Source: Roseinatronobacter thiooxidans (GTDB lineage: Bacteria > Pseudomonadota > Alphaproteobacteria > Rhodobacterales > Rhodobacteraceae). From it: 64,000 nt of DNA. The stretch spans positions 186,001-250,000 of the forward strand of contig NZ_MEHT01000044.1 in the NCBI RefSeq assembly GCF_001870675.1, given 5' to 3'. The position numbers and the translations under genes are program-made. Positions 3,395-37,420 of the stretch are shown here, piece by piece. The notes under the pieces are model-generated. The model did no database searches. It saw only the letters and a program-made list of their open reading frames with translations, and was not told the DNA's origin. Numbering within the stretch: position 1 is the stretch's first letter; the number at the start of each line of letters is the position of its first letter.

Positions 3395-4261
3395 TCAGGC
3401 GACCTTTTCCAAGCCCGCTTGCGGCTGCACCCCCAACGCATGGCACACATCGCGCGTCAGGTGCGGGCGGTTCAGGGTATAGAAATGCAGGTCTTCCACC
3501 CCTTCGCGTACCAGCTTGTCGCATAATTCAGTGCACAAAGCGGTGGCCAACAAATCCTCGCGCCCGTCGCGTGTGGCTTTCTCGAACGCATCATCCAGCC
3601 ATGCAGGCACGGTGGCCCCTGTGGCCAGCGCGAATTTGCGAATGCCCTTCCAATTCTCGATCGGGATGATGCCGGGAATGATGCGCCCTGTGATCCCTTC
3701 GCGCGCGCAGGTGTCGCGGAAGCGCAGGAAAGTGTCTGCCTCGAAGAAAAACTGGGTGATGGCACTATCCGCACCGGCTGCAAATTTCTGCTTCAGCCAG
3801 CGCACATCGGCCAGATCATCTGCGGCTTCTGGATGCGGCTCTGGGTAGGCGCCCACGCGCAGCTTGAAATTTCCAGTTGCTGCCAGCGCCTCGATCAACT
3901 CGACCGAATGGGCGAATCCTTCGGGGTTGGGGGTGAAGCGCCCCTGCCCTTTGGGCGGATCGCCCCGCAGCGCCACAATCTCGGTCACGCCTGCTTTGGT
4001 GTAGCTGTCGGCAATCGCCAATGTTTCCGCGCGCGTCGCATCCACACAGGTCAGATGCGCGGCCACATTCAGCCCGAATTGCGCGCCAATGGTGGTGACC
4101 GCCTCATGCGTCAATTGCCGCGTGGTGCCCCCTGCGCCATATGTCACCGACACGAAACTGGGCGAGAGTGGCGCCAGCATGCGCACCGTGTCCCACAGCC
4201 GAAAGCTGGCATCCAGCGTTTTGGGGGGGAAGAATTCGAACGAGACGCGCGGTGTGGACAT
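3395..4261 (-). CDS. metF: 5,10-methylenetetrahydrofolate reductase MetF
   Basis: The 288-residue flavoprotein reduces 5,10-methylene-THF to 5-methyl-THF, the methyl donor for homocysteine methylation. The N-terminal SFEFFPPKT signature (residues 7-15) carries the catalytic glutamate; the FVSVTYGAGG and LRGDPP motifs and the central FFFEADTF stretch are typical of the TIM-barrel family. The length is normal. The ATG at 4261 is preferred over an upstream in-frame start because GGAG lies seven to ten bases before it and the family N-terminus begins there. It is divergent from metR, and the MetR box at 4309-4321 lies between them, so MetR activation in response to homocysteine is likely. Confidence 0.94.
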   Translation of the reverse strand: MSTPRVSFEFFPPKTLDASFRLWDTVRMLAPLSPSFVSVTYGAGGTTRQLTHEAVTTIGAQFGLNVAAHLTCVDATRAETLAIADSYTKAGVTEIVALRGDPPKGQGRFTPNPEGFAHSVELIEALAATGNFKLRVGAYPEPHPEAADDLADVRWLKQKFAAGADSAITQFFFEADTFLRFRDTCAREGITGRIIPGIIPIENWKGIRKFALATGATVPAWLDDAFEKATRDGREDLLATALCTELCDKLVREGVEDLHFYTLNRPHLTRDVCHALGVQPQAGLEKVA

Positions 4262-4308
4262 TGGACAGGCTCCATTTCTGTTGCCCCCTTGTGCCATGCC
4301 TACGAATG

Positions 4309-4349: not shown

Positions 4350-5255
4350 ATGCATATCGAATTCCGCCACCTGCGCACGATCAAGGCGATTCACGAGGCG
4401 GGCGGGCTGGCGCGCGCGGCCGATCTGCTGAACATGACGCAATCGGCGCTGTCGCATCAGGTGAAAGGGATCGAGGAACAGGCGGGCGTGGAACTTTTCG
4501 TGCGCCGCTCCAAGCCGCTGAAACTCTCCTCGGCCGGCATGAAGATGCTGCGCGCCGCCGAAGACATTCTGCCGCGTGTGGCGGCACTGGAAGAAGAATT
4601 CACAGGGCTGGTCAAGGGCAGCTCTGGCCGGTTGCATATTGCCATTGAATGCCACGCCTGTTTCGACTGGCTGTTTCCGGTGCTGGAGCAGTTTCGCAAG
4701 GCATGGCCTGAAGTCGATGTCGATATCCGCCCCGGTCTGGCCTTTGACGCCCTGCCCGCCCTGCGCCGCGAGGAAGTGGACCTTGTCATCTCGTCCGACC
4801 CCGAGAAGCTGGAAGGGGTCAGCTTCCTGCCGCTATTCGACTACGAGCCGGTCTTTGTTGCCGCCGCCACCAACCCGCTGGCGCAAAAACCCTATATCGA
4901 AGCTGCCGATTTCCGCGACCAGACGCTGATCACCTATCCGGTAGAGCGCACGCGGCTGGATGTGTTCACCCAACTCCTGACTCCCGCCAAGATAGAGCCG
5001 CGCGCGATCCGGCAGGTGGAACTGACAGCGGTGATCCTGCTGCTGGTGGCCTCTGGGCGCGGCGTGTCGGTCCTGCCCGACTGGGTGCTGCGCGATATCC
5101 GCTACCATTCCGACTATGTGACAAAACCCCTGACCGCAGCGGGGCTGACCCGGCGGCTTTATGCGGCCGTGCGCGAAGAGGATGCGGGCAAACCGTTTAT
5201 GTCGCATGTGCTGCGACTGGCGCGGACGGAGCCGGTGAAGTTGCAGCGGGGGTGA
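4350..5255 (+). CDS. metR: LysR-type regulator MetR
   Basis: The 301-residue protein has an N-terminal winged helix-turn-helix (roughly residues 1-60, with AADLLNMTQSALSHQ as the recognition region) and a LysR substrate-binding domain after about residue 90. Strong similarity to MetR in the DNA-binding domain, the divergent metF and the perfect MetR box support the name. MetR activates methionine genes with homocysteine as co-inducer. The ATG at 4350 gives the standard MHIEFRHLRT start; the frame is open further upstream, but that would overlap the operator. Its stop lies only 18 bases from the convergent AT-rich gene at 5274-6179. Confidence 0.88.
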   Translation: MHIEFRHLRTIKAIHEAGGLARAADLLNMTQSALSHQVKGIEEQAGVELFVRRSKPLKLSSAGMKMLRAAEDILPRVAALEEEFTGLVKGSSGRLHIAIECHACFDWLFPVLEQFRKAWPEVDVDIRPGLAFDALPALRREEVDLVISSDPEKLEGVSFLPLFDYEPVFVAAATNPLAQKPYIEAADFRDQTLITYPVERTRLDVFTQLLTPAKIEPRAIRQVELTAVILLLVASGRGVSVLPDWVLRDIRYHSDYVTKPLTAAGLTRRLYAAVREEDAGKPFMSHVLRLARTEPVKLQRG

Positions 5256-5273
5256 GAAGTTCTATAGGGGTCA

Positions 5274-6179
5274 CTAAAGTCCGATAGCTTGGGCAAATGC
5301 TCTGCCTAGAGTATTCAAGCCAAAATTTGTGCCCTTATGTCCTCCTTCGACCGAAAAAAATGCACGTCGCCCATGATCTGTTCTGGCATCAACTAATTCA
5401 TATATACTATCTTGCAAATCAGACAGAACTTTATCTAGCCCGTGAGGACTAACTGCATATCCGCGTCGAAAAGGCTCTGGATCAAAATAGTGGAGATTAC
5501 GATGAGCCTCTATAAGATTCAGCCTTAACAACTCATTTTTCACCAAATCAAGGTGCTCTAAAGAAAAGTTACGCTCATCAAATATATACTCCCAGCCTGA
5601 TACAACTTCTGATTTAACATTATCTAGCTCTTGTCTTATCTCTTCTTCATCTATTTTGTTTTCCTCGTCAGAGAGGGGAAAAAACTCTTTATGATTGAAC
5701 CGAGAAATTAATTTATTTACTTCATTTAATCGATCCTCTTTAGCCAGCTGTATAAAAACTCTTGCAACATCAGCGCTCATCTGTTCAAGAATAATTGCAG
5801 CTGACTTTTTTGATAAGCCGGATACATTTCGAACCGACATTGCATCGGCCAGTAGACTTGCCCAAAGATCAGATAAACTATCTTCTTCAGCTTTGGACAT
5901 GCCATCAAATATTGCCAACATCTCTCCATACGGAAGCGCTTTTGCTTTCTCTAATGGAATCCCTTTATCTTTGAGCTTACCAGCGGTTTTTGTCAGACCA
6001 ATACAAAACCGCTCAATTCGCCAAAATCTAATTCTATCACCGACAATTCCACCCCAGACATCACCGCCACTCTGCTTTATTCCATCCAGCATACCACCTG
6101 CCGCAGCAACTGCGACTTTAGCCGCCACATCGCTAGCAGGGTCGCCAAGACCGGTTAAAAAACCCTTATTTTCGTTCAT
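5274..6179 (-). CDS. Abi-alpha / DUF4393-like protein, candidate phage-defence gene
   Basis: The 301-residue protein resembles the Abi-alpha (DUF4393) family. It has a glycine/alanine-rich N-terminus with a possible membrane-associating helix (about 16-34), a GDRIRFWRIERF motif (47-58), the KLKDKGIPLEKAKALPYGEMLAIFDG segment region (68-93), and a D-L-WA-LLA-A block (104-113) followed by an all-helical part. DUF4393 proteins are annotated as abortive-infection proteins, but the mechanism of this one is unknown. The gene is far richer in AT than its neighbours and uses many TTA, ATA and AAA codons. It sits alone between metR and the inositol-phosphatase gene, which suggests horizontal acquisition. 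GAGGT lies six bases before the ATG. No integrase, tRNA or flanking repeat was found. Family assignment is from memory of motifs. Confidence 0.72.
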   Translation of the reverse strand: MNENKGFLTGLGDPASDVAAKVAVAAAGGMLDGIKQSGGDVWGGIVGDRIRFWRIERFCIGLTKTAGKLKDKGIPLEKAKALPYGEMLAIFDGMSKAEEDSLSDLWASLLADAMSVRNVSGLSKKSAAIILEQMSADVARVFIQLAKEDRLNEVNKLISRFNHKEFFPLSDEENKIDEEEIRQELDNVKSEVVSGWEYIFDERNFSLEHLDLVKNELLRLNLIEAHRNLHYFDPEPFRRGYAVSPHGLDKVLSDLQDSIYELVDARTDHGRRAFFSVEGGHKGTNFGLNTLGRAFAQAIGL

Positions 6180-6343
6180 AAGACCTCATAATAATTAGAC
6201 TAAGATAATATTTAATTAAGATTGCCATACTCGACTGAGGCTCGCAACTTAAAAAATCTCTGCGTGATTGTGCCTCAAATCCCCTTCACATCCCCCCCAT
6301 CCCGGCGTATAGCGCCCCCTGACCCAATCTAGGAGCCGTTCGG

Positions 6344-7138
6344 ATGCAAGGCAGTGCAAACCTCAACCTGATGATCAAGGCCGCGCGCAAGGCGGGCCGG
6401 GCTTTGGTCAAGGACTTCCGCGAGGTCGAAAATTTGCAGGTCTCCAGCAAGGCCGCAGGCGATTTCGTCACCCGCGCGGACATTGCCGCCGAAAAGATCA
6501 TCCGCGAAGACCTGATGGAGGCGCGCCCCAATTACGGGTTCCTTGGCGAAGAATCAGCGGAGCATATCGGCACAGACCCCACCCGCCGCTGGATCGTCGA
6601 CCCGCTGGATGGCACCACCAATTTCCTGCACGGGTTGCCGCATTGGGCGGTGTCCATCGCGCTGGAATTCAAGGGCGAGATCGTCTCGGCCGTGGTGTTC
6701 GACCCTGCCAAGGATGAATTGTTCGTGGCCGAAAAGGGCATGGGCTGTTTCATGAATGACAAGCGGCTGCGCGTGTCGAACCGTAACACCATGATCGAAT
6801 GTATTTTTGCCACCGGCGTGCCCTTTGCCGCCAAGAAAACCCTGCCCGCCATGCTGCATGATCTGGCGCAGTTGATGCCTGCTTGTGCAGGGGTCCGGCG
6901 CTGGGGCGCGGCCTCGCTTGACCTCGCCTATGTTGCGGCGGGGCGCTATGACGGGTTCTGGGAACGGGAATTGCAGCCTTGGGACATGGCCGCCGGTCTG
7001 TTGCTGGTGCGCGAGGCGGGTGGTTTCACTGGCCCCATCCGCGAGGGTGAGGGGATTTTCGAGCGCGGCGAGGTGATTGCCGCGAATACCGAGATTTTCC
7101 CCAATTTCGCCAAGCTGATCCGCAAGAGGCCCGAGTAA
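6344..7138 (+). CDS. Inositol monophosphatase family protein (SuhB-like)
   Basis: The 264-residue enzyme belongs to the Li+-sensitive Mg2+-dependent phosphatases. It carries the metal site GEES (residues 68-71), the WIVDPLDGTTNFLHG motif (83-97) and the C-terminal WDMAAGLLLVREAGG signature (about 214-228). It should hydrolyse inositol-1-phosphate or a related phosphate monoester in the cytoplasm. In alphaproteobacteria such proteins are also named SuhB or, for some paralogues, histidinol phosphatase HisN, and the exact substrate is not decided by the sequence. A GGAG site lies nine to twelve bases before the ATG. Its stop codon lies in the loop of a hairpin terminator. Confidence 0.9.
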   Translation: MQGSANLNLMIKAARKAGRALVKDFREVENLQVSSKAAGDFVTRADIAAEKIIREDLMEARPNYGFLGEESAEHIGTDPTRRWIVDPLDGTTNFLHGLPHWAVSIALEFKGEIVSAVVFDPAKDELFVAEKGMGCFMNDKRLRVSNRNTMIECIFATGVPFAAKKTLPAMLHDLAQLMPACAGVRRWGAASLDLAYVAAGRYDGFWERELQPWDMAAGLLLVREAGGFTGPIREGEGIFERGEVIAANTEIFPNFAKLIRKRPE

Positions 7139-37348: not shown

Positions 37349-37356
37349 TTCAGCAA

Positions 37357-37396
37357 GCCGCGAGCCTTGTTTTGCCAAGGCTCGCGGCCCTTTGGC
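37357..37396 (+). terminator. Hairpin after the flagellin gene
   Basis: GCCGCGAGCCTTG (37357-37369) and CAAGGCTCGCGGC (37376-37388) form a perfect thirteen-pair stem with a six-base loop, followed by CCTTTGGCC. It may terminate or stabilise the abundant flagellin mRNA, partly separating it from flaF. Confidence 0.75.
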
Positions 37397-37420
37397 CTCT
37401 AGCATCGAAAGGGTCCGGCA

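Follow-up and report, generated by a model that had tools for sequence, protein, structure and literature searches.

A lone AT-rich Abi_alpha gene in a slot of changing contents between metR and imp of Roseinatronobacter thiooxidans

The window analyzed here, a stretch of 64,000 nucleotides of the Roseinatronobacter thiooxidans genome, carries a metR-like gene for a LysR-family regulator (4353..5255, plus strand; PF00126 and PF03466) as the left core flank of the locus and imp, a gene of the inositol-monophosphatase family (6344..7138, plus strand; PF00459, 3.2e-60), as the right one. Divergent from metR lies metF (3395..4297, minus strand), identified from its translation as a methylenetetrahydrofolate reductase gene and marking the conserved gene order. 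An AT-rich segment (5259..6280, delimited by the junctions in nine genomes with both flanks) is inserted downstream of the metR stop and ahead of a conserved imp leader (6281..6343, plus strand; CCCCTTCACATCC...CGTATAGC...), which was recognized by comparison of relatives and forms the right boundary of the slot. The segment carries an Abi_alpha (PF14337) gene (5274..6179, minus strand), convergent with metR and divergent from imp. Its open reading frame is unbroken and runs from an ATG over 301 codons; as read from the sequence, a GAGG ribosome-site-like motif lies 4-7 nt 5' of this ATG. A scan for sigma-70 promoters was uninformative, with 0 found where 2.4 were expected.

An earlier note on this DNA had pointed out the odd base composition and codon use of the gene, and both are confirmed. 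Its GC content is 0.414 against 0.611±0.029 in the conserved genes of the window (z -6.7), its GC3 is 0.309 against 0.700±0.044 (z -8.9), and a codon-adaptation-like index gives 0.40 compared with 0.69±0.05 (minimum 0.56). When the window is divided into 1-kb bins, the only bin below 50% GC is the one holding the Abi_alpha gene. In the metR-imp gap of the window, which measures 1.09 kb, we found no transposase or integrase ORF and no second ORF of cargo composition beside the Abi_alpha gene; searches for repeats near the gap returned no direct or inverted repeats at its ends, only short, chance-like matches. For this gap the lack of mobility genes and flanking repeats that had been remarked upon before thus holds.

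The proposed resemblance to Abi-alpha (DUF4393) is borne out by an HMM search with the PF14337 profile, which matched at 44.6 bits (curated cut-off 29, E 2.1e-11) over nearly its full length (profile 7-195 of 196, protein 63-298). Judged by its sequence, the 301-aa protein is a genuine member of this rare family, which at E <= 0.001 was detected in 9 of 395 genomes of the bacterial family and in 11 of 398 of the phylum. The GDRIRF and WA-LLA motifs on which the resemblance had been based are real as well: G47, D48, R54, W106, A107 and L109 are invariant across 8 homologues, and conservation of the GD...R and WA-LLA motifs is looser in a set of 24 homologue rows. The nearest relatives (43-44% identity) are three AT-rich genes of other Rhodobacteraceae (L003, L150 and L151) in intergenic sites unrelated to metR-imp; one of them, L003 of Natronohydrobacter thiooxidans (G031), lies downstream of guaD. 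Among the 36 other genomes of the genus, here taken as Roseinatronobacter/Roseibaca/Natronohydrobacter, homologues occur only in G031 (43%) and in G025 (24%, weak). The subfamily of the window protein was not found in the phages, viral contigs and plasmids searched, no close relative was confirmed in the GTDB contigs searched, NCBIfam gave no match and PHROGs gave only weak matches to families of unknown function. The PADLOC profile PDC-S47 matches weakly, at best with 20.8 bits (5.3e-5) and only over residues 88-179, the central helical part, and the same weak match is present in the closest homologues. Being partial and low-scoring, the likeness falls short of the strong full-length match expected of a PDC-S47 member; PDC-S47 is itself a candidate system for which our literature search found no activity.

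Comparison of relatives places the gene in a site of frequent change. Named genomes of other Rhodobacterales genera repeat the order metF-metR-imp, an old one in the Rhodobacterales. The metF-metR gap is almost constant in relatives, and of the 50 contigs on which both metR and imp were found, 25 have a metR-imp gap no longer than 234 bp. Wider gaps in these genera (for example with a 650-aa gene, in Yoonia and Loktanella) were not regarded as the same phenomenon and were left uncounted, since their GC content is about 0.51 or higher and they look like resident genes. Within the genus, imp is present in 36 of 37 genomes (E <= 1e-50), and both flanks lie on one contig in nine. Three of these sites are empty (63 bp in G029, 65 bp in G015 and 123 bp in L071), and six are filled with five unrelated AT-rich cargoes: Abi_alpha in the window's genome (G000), an FRG-domain/PDC-S15 gene (1.5e-88) in Natronohydrobacter thiooxidans, a PDC-S42-like gene (5e-12) in G020, a pentapeptide-repeat protein in G011 and G021, and in G019 a 218-aa protein for which no family was found. 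In some of the genomes where imp was not found after metR, AT-rich genes still follow metR: a HEPN_AbiU2 gene (1e-22) in Roseibaca domitiana, a gene of 228 aa (L065) and a gene beside a transposase-like ORF (L083), the last two assigned to no family. Even G000, G019 and G021, with imp proteins of about 92% identity, have different contents in the slot.

With the site empty or otherwise filled in close relatives, the gene is indeed a lone acquired one, as the earlier note had proposed, and the alternative of an old core gene with the same position and composition in all relatives is ruled out. In every filled genome the left end of the cargo lies right after the metR stop, and its right end lies where the conserved leader starts, about 63 bp ahead of imp, so that both core genes are spared; this leader is near-identical in G000, G019 and G021 and close in G020 and G011. 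We conclude that in this genus the metR-imp gap is a turnover slot in which related soda-lake bacteria carry various foreign single genes, several of which are defence candidates. 400-bp windows below 50% GC occur directly after metR in 8 of 20 genomes compared with 1 of 582 control windows from the rest of the stretches examined on contigs of the genus (Fisher 3e-12), a statistic that is descriptive, since neither the windows nor the genomes are independent of each other. When 36 other spacers of the window were compared with those of G021, a relative with the same gene order, a single one differed by more than 300 bp (G031 and G020 were left out as synteny controls, their gene order breaking just after imp). 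That spacer (37349-37420) measures 72 bp in the window and 1005 bp in G021.

Our preferred explanation, to which we give a probability of roughly 0.55, is that the acquired Abi_alpha gene is a solo abortive-infection effector and a cargo of the slot, exchanged through homologous recombination of the flanking sequences, for which gene transfer agents (GTAs) or transformation are the likely carriers. The founding member of the family, Abiα (ef2833) of prophage 6 in Enterococcus faecalis V583, is a one-gene abortive infection system that causes premature lysis and loss of phage; infection kills the cells, and lysis comes about 10 min ahead of time, possibly because holin timing is altered or proton motive force is lost (PMC6356687). 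The window gene belongs to the same Pfam family and is likewise a single gene, of similar size (301 against 272 aa) and with no partner, and most likely it would work like this founding system. The sequence identity between the two is remote, and whereas the E. faecalis gene is prophage-borne, ours sits in a chromosomal slot of an alphaproteobacterium and its activity is putative. By analogy, we infer an antiphage activity and a mode of killing in which the protein would stay inactive up to a late stage of phage infection and would then upset lysis timing or cell integrity, killing the cell ahead of the maturation of progeny. Alternatively, the gene might play no role in defence and be a foreign gene in a permissive gap, neutral or useful in some other way. 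Few members of Abi_alpha have a known function, and the slot also houses the pentapeptide-repeat protein and unknowns; however, several independent cargoes come from Abi or PADLOC-candidate families, and the ORF is unbroken with all family motifs kept, which makes a non-defensive gene the rather less probable case.

As to its arrival, the gene would have entered as a single-gene cargo of the slot, whose contents may be replaced via double homologous recombination in the flanks, carried by GTA particles or by transformation. We infer this mechanism and its carriers from several observations. Hotspots that lack mobile elements and are renewed by recombination in the core genes on either side have been described as a class (PMC5635113). 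The metR-imp slot resembles these hotspots (Oliveira et al. 2017, PMC5635113) in its conserved core flanks, its unrelated contents and, in the window's copy, the lack of an integrase, and is unlike them in that it holds mostly single, AT-rich, defence-rich genes and is seen between species of one genus. On the other hand, an identity profile of the two core genes did not demonstrate raised recombination: no gradient stands out clearly, and only the imp leader is well conserved; in G020 this leader is more conserved than the imp coding sequence. The GTA marker GTA_TIM is present in 35 of 37 genomes of the genus, and comEC is present in the window's own genome. RcGTA delivers pieces of about 4.5 kb that lead to allelic replacement (PMC9690577), and the fills of the slot (0.9-2.8 kb), together with flanks, are compatible with such pieces. 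GTA is thus a plausible carrier of slot cargo. In G024, GTA_TIM matches at up to six places, and in G033 at four; given these extra copies, some may be prophage-like, and related prophages or duplicated GTA clusters do occur in the genus.

A different route would be insertion at the 3' end of metR by a site-specific or transposon-like element that has escaped recognition, with the lone genes as remnants that have lost their mobility genes. The constant left boundary right after the metR stop would fit such an element, as would the ISL3-like transposase, identified from its translation, that breaks the G021 cargo and the transposase near the L083 cargo. However, no recognisable mobile element occurs in the window's copy or in four others, there is neither an integrase nor a direct or inverted end repeat, the unrelated cargoes share no common end sequences, and both transposases seem to have inserted into cargo at a later time. 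We therefore consider an element of this kind unlikely.

An AlphaFold2 model of the Abi_alpha protein was built from 24 homologues (mean pLDDT 83.5, pTM 0.78). Helices make up most of the model, which has a beta-hairpin and a helix at its C-terminus and is unreliable at residues 1-14 and 33-44. Searches of the PDB by sequence and by fold gave no convincing relative; the PDB rows from VIA-align were rejected as long-helix matches whose best Z of 8.3 is at chance level for helical models. In BFVD two viral proteins matched with a probability of 0.99 but E values of 0.01-0.16. The idea that an A/G-rich N-terminal helix inserts and kills, making the protein a membrane-permeabilising effector, appears doubtful. 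In its favour, the A/G-rich segment 19-47 is conserved, model confidence is low at the two N-terminal stretches just named, and the authors of the Abi-alpha study could not exclude loss of proton motive force. However, the hydropathy of the Abi_alpha protein over 19 residues (1.09; maximum 1.1-1.2) lies under the usual transmembrane threshold, so no transmembrane helix is indicated; shuffling at equal composition gives p 0.06 and 0.21 for the GxxxG spacing of the N-terminus, no excess over chance, and a transmembrane-like helix is also missing in most family members. The membrane-active, glycine-rich helix of the earlier note is hence not supported.

The window gene is an ordinary member of Abi_alpha, and the slot for single genes enriched in defence is the added finding. 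Through it, a poorly understood family of suicide defence reaches into Alphaproteobacteria, where the gene stands alone in the chromosome. Of more use is the slot, since a single fixed pair of core genes can be read across species to find new one-gene defence candidates, among them the genes of 218 aa and 228 aa and the PDC-S42-like gene. The slot would also be a clean place to test whether defence genes are moved by GTAs. A bolder proposal would be that haloalkaliphilic Rhodobacterales reserve the metR-imp gap, in the manner of a cassette, for one-gene Abi systems that GTA particles exchange as allelic replacements of about 1-3 kb. We regard this as improbable; if true, GTAs would distribute phage immunity between species.

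Some minor observations concern Abi_alpha genes at other sites. In three genomes, small proteins with HEPN-like R-x4-H motifs, noted by eye, adjoin Abi_alpha genes (L150, 2185-2826, with no Pfam match; L169, 2169-2510; L177, 2017-2328). Possibly such a protein is a partner of Abi_alpha that is missing at the window's locus. Two different Abi_alpha genes from two genera (L148 and L149) each lie directly downstream of a pccB-like carboxylase subunit gene, and the site after this gene is possibly another recurrent Abi_alpha site. The window's own genome has, on contig C34, a second lone AT-rich gene (L189; 260 aa, GC 0.39, with a hydrophobic N-terminus) downstream of guaD. Since it shares this spot with the Abi_alpha gene of Natronohydrobacter thiooxidans, a second slot may exist downstream of guaD.
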